Shown here piece after piece: positions 49,870 through 56,135 of a stretch of DNA of 64,000 nucleotides. Within the stretch, counting starts at the first letter, position 1. Each line of letters starts with the position of its first letter. The stretch spans positions 92,075-156,074 of the forward strand of contig JAHQVJ010000041.1 of NCBI GenBank assembly GCA_019634415.1, in the 5' to 3' direction. Source of the DNA: Myxococcales bacterium. GTDB lineage: Bacteria; Myxococcota_A; UBA796; GCA-2862545. The notes under the pieces are model-generated. The model ran no database searches. It was given only the letters and a program-made list of their open reading frames with translations, and had not been told where the DNA came from. Position numbers and translations under genes: made by a program.

Positions 49870-52095
49870 ATGGTGACGTGGGTCTGGGGCGTGATCGGGT
49901 TGGGGTGCACACACGGTGGCCCGGTCGCGGCGTTCGAGCGGGAGCTCACCTTCGAGGCGGAGCACGACGGCGGCCCGGCGGGATGGAGCGCGCGGCCCGA
50001 GGATGCGGCGACACTCGATGCCGAGGGCGCCTTCGAGGGGGAGTGGGCGGTGCGCTTGGATCGCGACGAGGACAGCGAGGGAGAGTTCTCCACGCTGGTG
50101 CGCACCCTCCCCGTCGACTTCGAGGGACGCCTCGTTCGCCTGCGGGGGCAGATCCGCACCGAGGGGGTCACGGGCTACGCCGGGCTGTGGATCCGCCTCG
50201 ACGGACCGGGCGGGACCGTTGCCTTGGAGCACCTCGACGATCCGATCGAGGGCACGCAGCCCTGGAAGCGCCACGTCGTGCAGGCGCAGCTCGAGTCGGG
50301 CGTCACCCATCTGACCTTCGGGGGGCTGATCGTGGGCACGGGGAGCGCCTGGTTCGACGATCTGCAGCTGGTCGTGGACGGAAAGCCCCTCGATCGGGCC
50401 TCGCCCAAGGAGCCCTCGGTGGTGGTGACGGACCGCGAGTTCGAGGCAGGCTCGGGCATCGCCGACGGGGAGCTGACCGACGTTCAGGTCCGCAACGTGG
50501 CCCTGCTGGGGGAGGTGTGGGGCTTTCTCAAGTACCATCATCCTCGCGTCACCAACGGGCAGCTGCACTGGGACTTCGAGCTGTTCCGAGCGCTGCCCGC
50601 CGTACTTCGGGCGGCCGACGAGATCGAGGGCCGCTCCGCCGTGCTGGCCCTGGTGGAGCGCGTGGGGCTCCCCGAGCCCTGCAAGCCGTGCGCCGAGCCC
50701 CTGGTTGAGCCCGCCCTCGATCCCCCCCTGGCCTGGCTCACGGACGAGGAGCGTCTGGGCCCGGACGTCGCCTCGGCGCTCCAGACCGTGTACGAGCGAC
50801 GCCACGCCAAGGGAGCTCAAGCCTATGTGCGCCTCGCACCCGGTGTGGGAAACGCGGTGCTGTCGATGGAGCAATCCTACGACACGCTCGGTCACCCCGA
50901 CGCCGGCTATCGGCTCCTCGCCCTGATGCGGCTGTGGAGCGTGGTGCGCTACTGGTTCCCCTACCGCGACCTGCTCGAGGACGACTGGCGGGACGTGCTC
51001 GTCGAGTTCGTGCCGCGCCTCGTGGCGGCGGACGACGCCGACACCTACCGAATCGAGCTGATCGAGCTCATCGGGCGCGTGCACGACACCCACGCGAACC
51101 TGTGGGGCTCCACCGACGTGGTCCCCCCTCGCGGCGACCACGCCTTGCCCATCCAGCTGCGCTTCGTGGGCGAGCGGGCGGTGGTGTGGGAGGTGTTGGA
51201 CGGCACCCCCTTCCAGCGGGGCGACGTGGTGGTGGCGATCGACGACGAGACGGTAGAGCAGCGGATCGCGCGCACGGCCCGAGCCTACCCGGCCTCCAAC
51301 GAGCCCACGCGGCTGCGCAACCAGGCACGCTTCCTCACCCGAGGTCCGGCTGGCCCCGCCAAGGTGGTGCTGTCGCGGGGAGACGAACGCGTCGAGCTCG
51401 ATGTCGAGCGCCGACCGTCGACCGAGATGGAGCTGCAGTGGGGCCGCCACGACCGGGCCGGAGAGGCGATGCAGCGGCTGGGCGAGCACATCGCCTACCT
51501 CAAGCTGTCGTCGGTGGTGGCCGGCGACGTGCCTGCCTACCTGGAGGCCGCCAAGGGCACGCGGGGGCTGGTGATCGATCTGCGCTGCTACCCGTCGGAG
51601 TTCGTGGTCTTCGCGTTGGGTCAGCACCTGGTGGCGTCGCCCACACCCTTCGCCCGCTTCACCACGGGCAGCCTCGCCAACCCCGGTGCCTTCGGCTGGA
51701 CCGAGCCCGTCACGCTCCAGCCCGCCGAGCCCAGCTACGCGGGTCAGATCGTGATCCTGGTCGACGAGGTGACCCAGAGTCAGGCGGAGTACACCTCCAT
51801 GGCCTTTCGCAGCGCGCCCGGTGCGCTGGTGGTGGGCAGCACCACGGCCGGGGCCGACGGCAACTACTCGGCGCTGTCGCTGCCCGGCGGGCTGCGCACG
51901 GGCTTGAGCGGCATCGGAGTCTTCTACCCCGACCGCACCCCCACCCAGCGCGTGGGAATCCTGCCCGACGTGCAGGCGCGCCCCACGGTGGAGGGGATCC
52001 GAGCCGGCCGCGACGAGGTGCTCGAGGAGGCCTTGCGCCAGATCCTCGGAGAGGACGCCGATCAGCAGGCGATCATCGAGCTCGCACGCCGCTGA
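49870..52095 (+). CDS. S41 family peptidase lipoprotein
   Basis: The 741-residue lipoprotein (IGLGC, Cys13) has an N-terminal beta-sandwich (20-180) like a carbohydrate-binding or CBM-type fold. A helical region follows, then a PDZ-like segment and a tricorn/C-terminal-processing-protease catalytic domain. The catalytic Ser is in VTQSQAEYTS (Ser637), and GRVHDTHANLWG holds the partner His; a lysine of the CTP type is not seen, so tricorn-like Ser-His-Glu chemistry is likely. The enzyme probably degrades peptides outside the cytoplasm. GGAGGC sits directly before the ATG. Its stop is 1 base from the stop of the aspS gene (convergent). Confidence 0.85.
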   Translation: MVTWVWGVIGLGCTHGGPVAAFERELTFEAEHDGGPAGWSARPEDAATLDAEGAFEGEWAVRLDRDEDSEGEFSTLVRTLPVDFEGRLVRLRGQIRTEGVTGYAGLWIRLDGPGGTVALEHLDDPIEGTQPWKRHVVQAQLESGVTHLTFGGLIVGTGSAWFDDLQLVVDGKPLDRASPKEPSVVVTDREFEAGSGIADGELTDVQVRNVALLGEVWGFLKYHHPRVTNGQLHWDFELFRALPAVLRAADEIEGRSAVLALVERVGLPEPCKPCAEPLVEPALDPPLAWLTDEERLGPDVASALQTVYERRHAKGAQAYVRLAPGVGNAVLSMEQSYDTLGHPDAGYRLLALMRLWSVVRYWFPYRDLLEDDWRDVLVEFVPRLVAADDADTYRIELIELIGRVHDTHANLWGSTDVVPPRGDHALPIQLRFVGERAVVWEVLDGTPFQRGDVVVAIDDETVEQRIARTARAYPASNEPTRLRNQARFLTRGPAGPAKVVLSRGDERVELDVERRPSTEMELQWGRHDRAGEAMQRLGEHIAYLKLSSVVAGDVPAYLEAAKGTRGLVIDLRCYPSEFVVFALGQHLVASPTPFARFTTGSLANPGAFGWTEPVTLQPAEPSYAGQIVILVDEVTQSQAEYTSMAFRSAPGALVVGSTTAGADGNYSALSLPGGLRTGLSGIGVFYPDRTPTQRVGILPDVQARPTVEGIRAGRDEVLEEALRQILGEDADQQAIIELARR

Positions 52096-52096
52096 G

Positions 52097-53386
52097 CTAG
52101 GGCGTCAGGCGATGTGCGTCCCGCGGGAACAGCGTGGCGTCGCGCACGTTGTCGATGCCGCACAGTAGCGCCGTCATCCGCTCCAGGCCCAGGCCGAAGC
52201 CGCCGTGTGGCGGCAAGCCGCAGCGATGGGCCTGCAGGAAGAAGGCGAACCCAGCGGGGTCCATCCCGCGGGATCGGATCTTCGCCTCCAGCTCGCCAGG
52301 ATCGTGGATCCGCTGGCCGCCGGTGGTGATCTCGGTGCCGCGGAACAGCAGGTCGAAGCTGTCGGTGACGCTGGGCTCGCCTGGGGTGTCCATGGCGTAG
52401 AACGGTCGCTTGGCGGTGGGGTAGTGGGTCACGTACAGCCACTGCGAGCCGTGCTCCGACTGCGCCCACCGTCCCAGGGCTGCCTCCTCGGCAGGAGCGA
52501 GGTCGTGGCCCGTGCCGCCCGTGATCTTCTTGGCCTCGGCGAACCTGAGTGCTGGGATGGTGTGCACCTCGGGCAGCTCGATCTCGAGCAGGGCCAGCTC
52601 GTGGGAACAGTCCTGCTCCAGCTGCTGCATCATGGCGGCGAGCAGCCCCACCTGCAGCGACATCACCTCCGTGAACGAGCCGATGGGGCCCAGCTCGACG
52701 TCCAGCGACGTGTACTCGTTGAGGTGGCGTCGCGTGGCGTGGGGCTCGGCGCGGAACACCGGTCCCACCTCGTAGACGCGTCCGAACACGCCCGTGCACA
52801 TCTCCTTGTAGAACTGGGGCGACTGCGCGAGCACCGCGCGGCGGCCGAAGTAGTCCAGATCGAACACGTCGGCTCCTCCCTCCGCTCCCTCCGAGCCGAG
52901 CTTGGGGCTGCGGATCTCGGTGAAGCCGAGGCCGTCGAGGTGGGCGCGAAAGGCGCGCACCAAGGCTGCTTGGATCGTGAAGGCGGCCCGGATCCGAGGG
53001 TGTCTCAAGCTCGCCGGACGATGGTCGAGTCGGGTCTGAGGGGTGGCCACCAGCTCGGGGCGCGTCAGGTCGAAGGGCATGCCCTCGGGGGCGGGGCTGG
53101 CCACGATCTCCACCTCGGTGGCCGCGATCTCGAGGGAGCGCCAGTACAGCGTGGCGTCGCGCAGGGTGGCGGCCACCACGCGACCGCGCACGCGCACCGT
53201 GGCGCCAGCGCGCACGCCCTCGGGAGCCTCGGCGCACACGATCTGCACGAGCCCGCGAGGTAGCCACAGCTTCAGGAAGGTTCGGGCCGACAGCCTTCGC
53301 ACCTGGTGCACCAGACCGCACCAATCCCCCACGGCATCCACCGTGGGCTCGGGGGTGCGCTGCATCGGTCGGATCGCTTCGATCAT
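52097..53386 (-). CDS. aspS: Aspartyl-tRNA synthetase, archaeal/eukaryotic type (probably aspartate-tRNA(Asx))
   Basis: The 429-residue class IIb synthetase has an OB-fold anticodon domain (about 20-105) and a catalytic core. Motif 2 lies in GPVFRAEPHATRRHLNEYTSLDVE and motif 3 in GGFGLGLERMTALL, ending LFPRD. Its size of about 430 residues and lack of the bacterial GAD insertion mark the archaeal-type AspRS, which in bacteria is usually non-discriminating and charges tRNA(Asn) for later amidation. AGGAGG precedes the ATG at 53386. Upstream lie a 16-bp hairpin with a T-run and a leader ORF with three Asp codons, so expression is likely attenuated. It converges on the S41 protease gene. Confidence 0.93.
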   Translation of the reverse strand: MIEAIRPMQRTPEPTVDAVGDWCGLVHQVRRLSARTFLKLWLPRGLVQIVCAEAPEGVRAGATVRVRGRVVAATLRDATLYWRSLEIAATEVEIVASPAPEGMPFDLTRPELVATPQTRLDHRPASLRHPRIRAAFTIQAALVRAFRAHLDGLGFTEIRSPKLGSEGAEGGADVFDLDYFGRRAVLAQSPQFYKEMCTGVFGRVYEVGPVFRAEPHATRRHLNEYTSLDVELGPIGSFTEVMSLQVGLLAAMMQQLEQDCSHELALLEIELPEVHTIPALRFAEAKKITGGTGHDLAPAEEAALGRWAQSEHGSQWLYVTHYPTAKRPFYAMDTPGEPSVTDSFDLLFRGTEITTGGQRIHDPGELEAKIRSRGMDPAGFAFFLQAHRCGLPPHGGFGLGLERMTALLCGIDNVRDATLFPRDAHRLTP

Positions 53387-53410
53387 GTCGGCCTCCTGGT
53401 GAGGTCCCCA

Positions 53411-53452
53411 AAACGACAGCGGCCCCCGGAGGAAATCTCCGGGGGCCGCTGT
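53411..53452 (-). terminator. Attenuator-like hairpin upstream of aspS
   Basis: On the minus strand, ACAGCGGCCCCCGGAG (53452-53437), loop ATTTC and CTCCGGGGGCCGCTGT (53431-53416) form a perfect 16-bp hairpin followed by CGTTTTGGGG. The T-run after a GC-rich stem is an intrinsic terminator layout, placed between a short leader ORF and the aspS start, 25 bases before its ribosome-binding region. It could end transcription unless an alternative pairing forms upstream (53486-53498 against the 5' arm). Confidence 0.75.
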
Positions 53453-53475
53453 GCGCTGTGGGGGTGGGTGAGTGC

Positions 53476-53556
53476 CTACCCGGCGCACGGCTGCCCGGTG
53501 GCATCATCATCACGACGATGAGGTGCGGTGCGACGGGCTGGCGCGTGGACGGTCAT
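53476..53556 (-). CDS. Candidate leader peptide of aspS with Asp-Asp-Asp codons
   Basis: A 26-codon ORF starts at ATG 53556 and ends at TAG 53476, in the order MTVHAPARRTAPHRR, DDD, ATGQPCAG. The three consecutive GAT codons (53511-53503) lie 50 bases upstream of the attenuator-like hairpin. Consecutive codons for the amino acid of the downstream synthetase are the hallmark of ribosome-mediated attenuation: scarce Asp-tRNA would stall the ribosome and favour transcription of aspS. There is no strong ribosome-binding site before the ATG, a weakness; reading in from the upstream gene (stop 18 bases before) could supply ribosomes. The triple repeat could also arise by chance. Confidence 0.5.
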   Translation of the reverse strand: MTVHAPARRTAPHRRDDDATGQPCAG

Positions 53557-53573
53557 GACCAAGGCCTAACGAG

Positions 53574-54206
53574 TCACAGCGCCTCGAGCACCACCGAAGG
53601 CGACGACTCGTACAGCACGCGGAGCACCGACACCACGATCCGGTTGATGTGGTCGTGCACCTGGGCCTCCGCCTCGCGCTCCGACCGGCCCGTGGCCGTG
53701 CACAGGTGGCGGAAGTTGTCCTGCTTCTCGTCGTAGATCACGAGCTCGTCGCCGTGCAGCTCCAGGTTCACGTGGGGCAGCTTCAGCAGCAGGCGCTTCA
53801 CCGTCTGATCGCACAGCAGGCCCAGGGTGTGCGAGGGGCGGTCGGACGACACCACGAAGCGCCGGTCGAGGTCCGGATCCTGGGTGAGGAAGGTGCCCTG
53901 CCCGAAGGAGCTCATGCCGCGGCCCTCGCGCTCCACGATGCGCAGCTGGAGCACGCCGTAGCGGGGCAGCTGGGCGGTCCACTTCCAGCCCTCTTCGTCG
54001 TCGAAGTCGAGCTTGATGCCGCGGATCGACTTGGTCCACTTGTGCTCGGCCACCTTCAGGTAGCCGAGCTCCGCCAGGCCGCTCGTGGCTTGCACGGGCT
54101 CCGCCTCGACGGGCTGGGCGCCCTTGTTGCTGACGATGATGAGCGCTGCGGCGGCGAGTGCCGCGGCCCCCAACAGCACCCCAGCGACCATGAGTCCGAG
54201 TTCCAT
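53574..54206 (-). CDS. Membrane-anchored hypothetical protein
   Basis: The 210-residue protein has one N-terminal transmembrane helix (5-27) and a soluble part that I do not recognise: TKSIRGIKLDFDDEEGWKW, LQLRIVEREGRGMSSFG, DLDRRFVVSSDRPSH, VKRLLLKLPHVNLELHGDEL and a C-terminal helix. The soluble part resembles a two-layer alpha/beta domain with no cysteine pair or enzymatic motif. It follows the CsgG-like gene by 39 bases on the same strand and precedes the aspS leader by 17. AGGTGGG supports the ATG at 54206. Confidence 0.6.
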   Translation of the reverse strand: MELGLMVAGVLLGAAALAAAALIIVSNKGAQPVEAEPVQATSGLAELGYLKVAEHKWTKSIRGIKLDFDDEEGWKWTAQLPRYGVLQLRIVEREGRGMSSFGQGTFLTQDPDLDRRFVVSSDRPSHTLGLLCDQTVKRLLLKLPHVNLELHGDELVIYDEKQDNFRHLCTATGRSEREAEAQVHDHINRIVVSVLRVLYESSPSVVLEAL

Positions 54207-54245
54207 ACCCACCTGCGCTCCCTTCGGCTCCAGGGGGTACGCGGT

Positions 54246-56135
54246 TTAGTCCCAGGCGACGCAGTCGTCGCGGACCAGCTGCCACAGCATGTACGAGGCC
54301 ATCCACCCAAGCGAGCCCTCGTAGCTCTCGGTATAGGTGGGGGCGTCTCGGTCGAGCATGGCCGGGTGCACCGTCATCTGGGTGATGGTCACCTTCGTGC
54401 GTGCACAGCTGGGCTCGGCCGTGGGGAGCAGCTGCAGCGAGGAGGCATGGGCGATCACTTCGCTCACGTGCTCGAAGCGGGGCTGAACTCCCACGACGCA
54501 GCCGAAGTCCTCCATGGGACCGATGTCCGACGCCATCACCTCGATGAACGTCTTGTCCTTGCGCAGTCCGCTCGTGCGTGCCTGATCGAGGGCAGCGAGC
54601 TGTGCCGTGAGTCCCGATGCGCGCGAGGTGGCGATGTAGGTGCAGTAGGGTCCGTCGCTGCGGAAGATGGTGTCGTCACCCTCGACCGCCGCACGGACGA
54701 CGCGCTCGATCTCCTCGGGGGTCTTGCCGAGGCGGCGTCGCCTGGCGGCCTGGACCTGGTCTGCTGCGCGCTCCACCTGCTCCACCTTCCGCAACAGGCG
54801 CTCGTGTGCATCGGAGTCGTTCGGATAGCGCGACAGGATCTGCCGCACCTTGCGGGTGAGCGCCTCGCTCGGTCCCAGCTGCTTGGCGTGCTGCAAGGCC
54901 CAGGTGGCGTCCAGGATGTCGGCGATGGTCAGCGGGCTCGCGCGCCGGGCCGGCGTCGACAGCAGCTCGGCGGGAAGGGCCTGCTGCAGTGCGTCGAGCT
55001 CGGTGAGGAAGGTCTGCCCCTGGTGGCACTGCAACAGCGAGCCGACGAGGCCCAGGTGCTCGTCTCGATGGGAGAACCACATCTCGTGCAGGAGGAGGTC
55101 GTTGATGTCCGTCACCGGATCGGCGGACACGCGGAACCGAAGCTCGGGGGCGAGCTTCTCCAAGATCCGCATGGGCTTGTGCCGGACCTCGTCCTTGACT
55201 CGGAACCACTGCTTTCGATCCAGCTCGGGCAAGGTCCACCCGATCCGGTCCCCGTAGTGACGCATCTCGCGCGCCCGCTGGCAGTGCCGCCCCTCGGCCC
55301 GTAGCACCTCGATCCGCAGGGCCAAGTCCACCAGGTGCTCCACACTCACCTCCGAGCCCGTCATGGTGGTCTCGTCGGTGGTGGTCTGCAGGATGTGCTC
55401 GTGCACCTTGTTGGCGTAGGTCGTCAGTCGCTCCTCACGCTCGGCCCGCCCCTCGGCCAGTGCTCCCGACAGGTCGCCGAGGCTGCTGCGCGCTGCCATG
55501 AAGTCGGGGTCGTCCGACAGCGCCTTGCGAAAGGCTCGCTCCGCACCCTCGAGATCTCCCTGATCCGCACGCTCCAGGCCCTCGCTGAAGGCCACCAGGG
55601 CGGAGAAGCTCTCGGTGGCGGCGGCGCTCATGAGCCGGCGGCGATCCCCGGCCGTCAGGGTGACGTCGAGCCCCTCCAGCAAGGCCTCCGTGACCTCCTT
55701 CTGCACGGCCACGAAGTCCTCGATGGAGCCCTGGGAGTCGGCACCCTTGACCACGTCCCCCGTCTGTACGGCCACCACGCGCACGTCGAGCAGGAAGGTG
55801 TCGCGGACCACGGAGTAGCTGCCGAGGAGCAGGTACTCGGCCCCCACGCCCTTGCCGAGCTTCTGGGCGGTGGCCGGATCGAGCAGGCCCGTGCTGGACA
55901 GCGCCATCTCGTCGAGCAGGCTCTGCACGCGCTCTCGCTCCACCAGCCGCAGACCGTCGATGGTCAGCAGATCGGTGACGAACATGCCGGCCAGGCCCTT
56001 GCCGAGTCCGAGGTAGTCCTCGCTGCTCTGACCTGCCTGGAGCGGTAGCACGGCCAGGCTGGCAGCACGGGCGTTCCCCACGAGCGTCACCCACAGGAGC
56101 GCGCCCCACAGCACACAGGACCAAAGCTGTTTCAT
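54246..56135 (-). CDS. CsgG/FlgO-like protein with TPR and C-terminal extension
   Basis: The 629-residue protein has a cleavable signal (VGNARA, site near 24) and a CsgG-type domain (25-160): LAVLPLQAGQSSEDYLGLG, MFVTDLLTIDGLRLVERERVQSLLDE and YLLLGSYSVVRDTFLLDVRVV. A TPR motif (180-205: FSEGLERADQGDLEGAERAFRKAL) and 400 residues of helical sequence follow, with Cys that I do not recognise. CsgG-like domains build outer-membrane pores or bind peptidoglycan-side partners. There is no lipobox. AAGGGGAG precedes the ATG. It is divergent from the TolC-RND operon across a 144-bp AT-rich region with a long inverted repeat. Confidence 0.7.
   Translation of the reverse strand: MKQLWSCVLWGALLWVTLVGNARAASLAVLPLQAGQSSEDYLGLGKGLAGMFVTDLLTIDGLRLVERERVQSLLDEMALSSTGLLDPATAQKLGKGVGAEYLLLGSYSVVRDTFLLDVRVVAVQTGDVVKGADSQGSIEDFVAVQKEVTEALLEGLDVTLTAGDRRRLMSAAATESFSALVAFSEGLERADQGDLEGAERAFRKALSDDPDFMAARSSLGDLSGALAEGRAEREERLTTYANKVHEHILQTTTDETTMTGSEVSVEHLVDLALRIEVLRAEGRHCQRAREMRHYGDRIGWTLPELDRKQWFRVKDEVRHKPMRILEKLAPELRFRVSADPVTDINDLLLHEMWFSHRDEHLGLVGSLLQCHQGQTFLTELDALQQALPAELLSTPARRASPLTIADILDATWALQHAKQLGPSEALTRKVRQILSRYPNDSDAHERLLRKVEQVERAADQVQAARRRRLGKTPEEIERVVRAAVEGDDTIFRSDGPYCTYIATSRASGLTAQLAALDQARTSGLRKDKTFIEVMASDIGPMEDFGCVVGVQPRFEHVSEVIAHASSLQLLPTAEPSCARTKVTITQMTVHPAMLDRDAPTYTESYEGSLGWMASYMLWQLVRDDCVAWD

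Follow-up and report, generated by a model that had tools for sequence, protein, structure and literature searches.

Predicted attenuation of an archaeal-type aspartyl-tRNA synthetase gene by a leader peptide with three consecutive Asp codons

Leader-peptide attenuation is a textbook RNA switch. Vecchione and Sello (2010) reportedly found ribosome-mediated attenuation of the gene for an auxiliary, antibiotic-resistant tryptophanyl-tRNA synthetase (TrpRS) in Streptomyces, with both the resistance and the regulation tested. Both that system and the locus described here combine a divergent aminoacyl-tRNA synthetase gene, a second one there and putatively so here, with a leader peptide containing many cognate codons and with attenuation, here predicted; they differ in that the former concerns Trp codons and TrpRS, whereas the latter concerns Asp codons and an archaeal-type aspartyl-tRNA synthetase (AspRS) and is known from sequence. 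Predictions of leader-peptide attenuators also exist for Streptomyces trpS and leuS and for gamma-proteobacterial pheST (PMC1262725). These likewise place synthetase genes under a leader ORF with cognate codons, an antiterminator and a terminator, but for other amino acids and enzymes, and the available part of that text holds no Asp case. In the available part of a study on bacilli, a His leader peptide is described before the hisS*/hisZ paralogues and a T-box before hisS (PMC2965389); the exchange of leader peptide and T-box among paralogous synthetase genes parallels the leader and T-box-like clades described below, but concerns histidine and the Firmicutes. For Shewanella aspS, an upstream RNA element with a terminator call has been predicted and is given as 'tRNA synthetase leader' in Table 3 (PMC2659441). 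There, as at the present locus, a 5' regulatory RNA and a terminator are predicted for aspS, but neither a leader peptide nor Asp codons are named in the available part of that paper. No case of Asp-specific leader-peptide attenuation was found in the literature, the search covering open-licence full texts and being weak evidence of absence. The initial annotation had considered such attenuation well known for biosynthetic operons and pheST and was aware of none for an AspRS gene; leaders of trpS, leuS and hisS have also been described in the accessible parts of these papers. Leader-peptide attenuators of synthetase genes are thus already known, and what was not found described is Asp as the sensed amino acid.

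The window, i.e. the whole 64-kb stretch of DNA analysed, derives from an assembly (G000) of 9.8 Mb in 254 contigs that is 82% complete. A short ORF with three Asp codons and a hairpin precede the AspRS gene, and together they most likely form a ribosome-mediated transcription attenuator sensing charged Asp tRNA via these codons (probability roughly 0.8); the mechanism and its role are predicted. The sequence elements, a second copy in a related genome (locus L008) and Asp-rich mini-ORFs before related AspRS genes in two other clades were observed directly. The features of the window, in order of transcription, are:

53574..54212, minus strand: upstream gene of 212 aa, no family match (ORF listing, family search)
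53476..53556, minus strand: leader mini-ORF, 26 codons from ATG 53556 (MTVHAPARRTAPHRRDDDATGQPCAG, stop TAG; sequence)
53503..53511, minus strand: run of three Asp codons (GAT GAT GAT), the putative regulatory codons (sequence)
53483..53498, minus strand: predicted antiterminator 5' strand (CCGGGCAGCCGTGCGC), within the mini-ORF just after the Asp codons (folding)
53439..53456, minus strand: 3' strand of the predicted antiterminator (GCGCACAGCGGCCCCCGG), which shares bases with the terminator 5' arm (folding)
53416..53452, minus strand: terminator-like hairpin, perfect 16-bp stem with loop ATTTC (ACAGCGGCCCCCGGAG-ATTTC-CTCCGGGGGCCGCTGT; sequence, folding)
53410..53415, minus strand: short T tail CGTTTT (sequence)
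53392..53397, minus strand: aspS Shine-Dalgarno AGGAGG (sequence)
52097..53386, minus strand: gene proposed to be regulated, encoding an archaeal-type aspartyl-tRNA synthetase of 429 aa (profile match)

The AspRS product scored 443.6 bits against NCBIfam PRK05159 (aspartate--tRNA(Asn) ligase, cut-off 353), which places it in the family of non-discriminating AspRS (AspRS2, Thermus/archaeal type), and 311.3 against TIGR00458, under the cut-off of 368.4. The product also carries PF00152, and the closest solved chain was 1n9w, the AspRS2 of Thermus. The gene had been annotated as aspS with its start at 53386; the ATG was found there on the minus strand and the product is an AspRS, but one of archaeal type (PRK05159) and not the ordinary bacterial aspS. 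Two neighbours, a CsgG-domain protein at 54246-56135 (minus strand) and an S41-peptidase-domain protein at 49870-52095 (plus strand), had no evident link to aspS.

The mini-ORF at 53556-53476 on the minus strand, with GAT GAT GAT at 53511-53503, was confirmed in the sequence. Its stop codon TAG lies at 53478-53476, and an alternative start TTG at 53562 would yield a peptide of 28 aa (ORF listing). No Shine-Dalgarno was seen upstream of the mini-ORF, nor was a promoter-like site found by a pattern scan and a scored test. The mini-ORF of L008 also lacked a good Shine-Dalgarno; AGGAGG-like sites with 5/6 matches preceded the mini-ORFs of four further loci (L118, L119, L120 and L153). A conserved promoter adjoining the leader was rejected: the summed score of eight leaders was 55, within that of shuffles (mean 50.8, sd 2.5), with L008 clear and L120 marginal by locus, overall not significant.

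Between the mini-ORF and the AspRS gene, the perfect 16-bp hairpin reported at 53452-53416 was present together with its CGTTTT tail, as in an intrinsic terminator, with the qualification that the tail comprises four T only; the hairpin was missed by a pattern scan requiring 5 T in 8. Within a segment of 56 nt it folded at -43.7 kcal/mol (z -7.1; none of 200 shuffles was equally stable), and by itself at -37.6 kcal/mol. In the window, the stem with its T tail ends 24 bases before the first base of the Shine-Dalgarno, which lies at approximately 53397.

For the folding of partially covered leaders, the ribosome was taken to reach 15 bases past the first base of its P-site codon. For a stall at the first Asp codon, the uncovered RNA, taken as far as the last base of the terminator 5' arm, folded at -30.4 kcal/mol in the window and at -34.1 in L008; with the ribosome at the stop codon, the corresponding free RNA reached -3.5 and -1.6 kcal/mol, respectively. 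Both antiterminators had the same layout in these two sequences: GTGCGC inside the mini-ORF pairs with GCGCAC just before the terminator, with an outer GGGC/GCCC. Their energy was reached by 11/500 (window) and 7/500 (L008) dinucleotide shuffles of the whole segment, and by 6/500 and 5/500 shuffles of the leader only. As to how many bases of the terminator arm pair with the leader, the count was not above that of shuffles, 172/500 (window) and 313/500 (L008) of which reached it. When the stalled RNA was folded in full, the terminator still gave the lowest energy, so the switch depends on the antiterminator forming first during transcription. A pairing of 53486-53498 with the 5' arm of the hairpin had been proposed; it came close to the predicted fold and is refined here to 53498-53483 with approximately 53456-53439.

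From this arrangement we infer translation of the leader, stalling of the ribosome and the switch itself. When Asp-tRNA is plentiful, the ribosome would read to the stop codon at 53476 and thereby mask 53498-53483, the 5' strand of the antiterminator; the 16-bp hairpin (53452-53416) would then form, and RNA polymerase would halt ahead of aspS. Under a shortage of Asp-tRNA, a ribosome stalled at 53511-53503 would expose the RNA from 53498 on; the antiterminator (53498-53483 paired with roughly 53456-53439) would then form first and take the 5' arm of the terminator, and aspS would be transcribed.

The second copy, L008, belongs to a genome (G014) of a different genus in the same family and is the same contig and locus as L038 (record PKDJ01000183.1). 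Its AspRS was 56-57% identical to that of the window. Among the 21 genomes of the family searched, an archaeal-type AspRS at E 1e-60 occurred in G000 and G014 only, and a genome of the same genus as the window (G001) contained bacterial AspRS only. The L008 leader reads MPMTCTRPVCRRDDDRSGARCASG up to its stop, then a ACGGCCCCGGAGG/CCTCCGGGGCCGT hairpin, the T tail CGGCGTTTTT, which takes the place of CGTTTT in the window, and AGGAG. A leading MT and an ending RRDDD..C.(S)G were common to both mini-ORFs, and GATGATGAT at the Asp codons was identical. The gene upstream of aspS differs between the two loci, the neighbour not being conserved; in L008 it is read as rpoA from its translation. Positions 1-1476 of L008 have AspRS2 and its leader directly following this gene, and rplQ is usually expected after rpoA. 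In this comparison of aspS upstream regions, which among close relatives involves the one locus L008, the RRDDD mini-ORF, both strands of the antiterminator and the terminator were all kept despite a different upstream gene. The attenuation reading of the initial annotation is supported; orthologues with the hairpin but no Asp-rich ORF are not the pattern, either in L008 or in 8/9 loci of the phylum.

These loci derive from searches of 71 genomes of the class of the window, 57 of the class of G217, 317 of the class of G361 and 377 drawn from the phylum, in which AspRS2 at E 1e-70 was found in 10 genomes. L121, whose contig ends inside the gene, was excluded, leaving nine testable loci. An Asp-rich mini-ORF preceded aspS in eight of them, with DDD in five and DD in three; the sole exception was L009 (genome G065), where no Asp-rich mini-ORF was found before aspS. 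The mini-ORFs are:

Window and L008: RRDDD
L117: MGSDDDDDDDEGSPRVT
L118: MDDNDDDVRRRLL
L119: MDNDDDDDVRRRR
L120: MDHDDSDISGDDRRGRP
L152: MITVVGDDLEERT
L153: MDPDDTSHDRKGRAA

The leaders of L118 and L119 contain Asn codons as well as Asp codons. In L117-L120 and L153, the Asp-codon leaders are followed by long hairpins beside the aspS Shine-Dalgarno, which may point to control at the level of translation, not of transcription, in that clade.

Leaders of this type were also found in clostridia, of which 78 loci formed part of the best 80 of 132 AspRS2 matches. Within this set, a DDD or DND mini-ORF occurred within 600 nt in 18/78 loci, and the leader of L041 at -744 raises the total to 19/78; the exact motif NRDDDR was seen in ten leaders among the matches listed. 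A T-tailed hairpin followed 17/18 of these mini-ORFs, as counted by our own search rule without shuffle control. An alignment of 14 leaders (A2) supported two mutually exclusive helices. Helix 1:2 was 98.6% paired, with both-sided changes in 4/10 pairs and a covariation reached by 0/500 shuffles; helix 2:3 was 91.4% paired, with 11 double-changed cells and a covariation reached by 1/500 shuffles, while its number of doubly changed pairs was not special (141/500 shuffles). Both helices were lost when the partner was slid by 1-3 columns. In the interval that separates the DDD leader from aspS, and near the latter, L039, L040 and L041 have a second short frame, MRHKDDA..(M/I)D, of which L077 has a divergent version; it is possibly a second regulatory element.

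An alternative in which the leader peptide senses Asp-tRNA but controls translation of aspS or Rho-dependent termination, instead of intrinsic termination, is improbable for the window. It would agree with the shortness of the CGTTTT tail and with the long hairpins over or adjoining the aspS Shine-Dalgarno in L119, L153 and L120, where no T-tailed terminator was seen; the clade of families f29/f31/f45 showed no obvious T-tailed terminator. In the window and L008, however, the hairpin is compact, with a perfect stem and a T tail, and stands upstream of the Shine-Dalgarno, AGGAGG was unpaired both in the 56-nt fold and in the ribosome-at-stop fold, and the clostridial leaders also have T-tailed hairpins, all of which speaks against this alternative.

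The hairpin could also end the transcript of the upstream gene (53574-54212), because this gene, on the same strand, ends 17 bases before the ATG of the leader. That the hairpin is nothing but the intrinsic terminator of this gene, and the DDD mini-ORF, without a Shine-Dalgarno, a chance frame in GC-rich DNA, is slightly less probable still. Both strands of the window together have 420 mini-ORFs between 8 and 70 aa long, and DDD occurred in one of them, the leader mini-ORF. The perfect stems of at least 10 bp listed for the 64 kb (two per strand) included no other with a T tail at any gene end, 53452-53416 being the only one with at least four T in the nine following bases. Control regions covered 600 nt and some slack before each gene, the gene starts having been corrected (the region of L018 being shorter than the others). 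Unlike the related AspRS2 genes, housekeeping aspS genes had a mini-ORF with DDD or DD in 0/15 cases and AsnRS-like genes one with DDD in 0/28, DD being found before 4/28 of the latter. In 86 AspRS2 upstream regions, i.e. the best 80 of 132 matches (including L037 and L038) plus six more, DDD ORFs were found in 23 on the plus strand, with L008 and L038 both counted although they are one locus, and in none on the minus strand; the next commonest triples on the plus strand were Ile and Arg (12 each), and Ser triples numbered 17 on the minus strand. A chance mini-ORF with a generic terminator is rejected because L008 has both mini-ORF and hairpin behind a different gene, and because of the Asp-rich mini-ORFs in other clades.

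Control by a T-box or another element that binds tRNA or a protein, acting without a leader peptide and with incidental Asp codons, is highly improbable. A T-box-core-like motif does occur in 8/86 AspRS2 upstream regions (including the best 80 of 132 matches), but in loci that do not overlap with the leader loci and belong to different clades, and the aspS upstream region of the window contains no such core motif. A T-box or other Rfam RNA was also rejected for the window as a whole, where no family reached the gathering score and a permissive scan gave sub-threshold matches only. The eight T-box-like loci are L043, L049, L059, L067, L068, L079, L087 and L102, and since they hold this motif, T-boxes plausibly control these relatives of AspRS2; for L043, the Rfam scan gave no match over threshold. 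In a tree of 51 proteins, the leader rows formed three groups (window and L008; L117-L120, L152 and L153; Lachnospiraceae), with a separate group for the T-box rows. The tree program also allowed a single origin of the leader among the labelled rows; three origins are suggested because the RNA designs differ among the groups.

A bacterial AspRS over the family cut-off was found in 6/8 phylum genomes with AspRS2 (G014, G217, G256, G271, G296 and G361; split over contigs in G217 and G296), a count covering eight genomes without G411 and G468. It was not found in G000 (82% complete) or in G065 (97% complete), which has no leader. Among the matches listed, bacterial AspRS was also present in 12/13 clostridial leader genomes tested. 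Coexistence alone is no mark of the leader, because 5/5 clostridial genomes without a DDD leader also carried bacterial AspRS. Since most tested genomes with AspRS2 also carry a housekeeping bacterial AspRS, we infer a role of AspRS2 as a reserve enzyme.

AsnRS was found in 12/12 genomes tested, including one copy in G000 and also G014, and GatB in 6/10 phylum genomes (in G411 as two sub-cut-off pieces). No GatB match was obtained in G000 (82% complete), G014 (88% complete), G296 and G361, some of these assemblies being incomplete, and the GatCAB expected for the use of Asp-tRNA(Asn) was thus not found in G000 and G014. Because AsnRS is present and GatB was not found in these two genomes, the AspRS of the clade of the window probably charges tRNA-Asp rather than feeding Asn-tRNA synthesis; a role in tRNA-dependent Asn formation is unlikely. 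An APGG stretch, which we take to be linked to tRNA-Asn recognition, was missing from the AspRS of the window and L008 and was seen in L117-L120, L152 and L153. In L044 and L052, a GatB sequence recognised by eye precedes AspRS2 in the same frame, and the length of the open frame indicated this arrangement also in L046, L050, L088, L093, L101, L112 and L113, an apparent GatB-AspRS fusion in Ruminococcus-type genomes.

A wider reading, which is tentative and rather doubtful, is that Asp-codon attenuation of a second AspRS arose at least three times, each time keeping a reserve AspRS silent until Asp-tRNA runs short, e.g. under a natural inhibitor of the housekeeping enzyme of the microcin C kind. 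The designs would be a terminator and antiterminator in the clade of the window, a fold over the aspS ribosome-binding site in f29/f31/f45, and helices 1:2 and 2:3 with T-tailed terminators in the Lachnospiraceae. If the attenuator proposed here is real, Asp would join the amino acids sensed by leader-peptide attenuation, and the second, archaeal-type AspRS of scattered bacteria would gain a testable trigger and role. A leader occurring with a reserve enzyme, and none in G065, where AspRS2 was the only AspRS found, would make a clear prediction on reserve synthetases.
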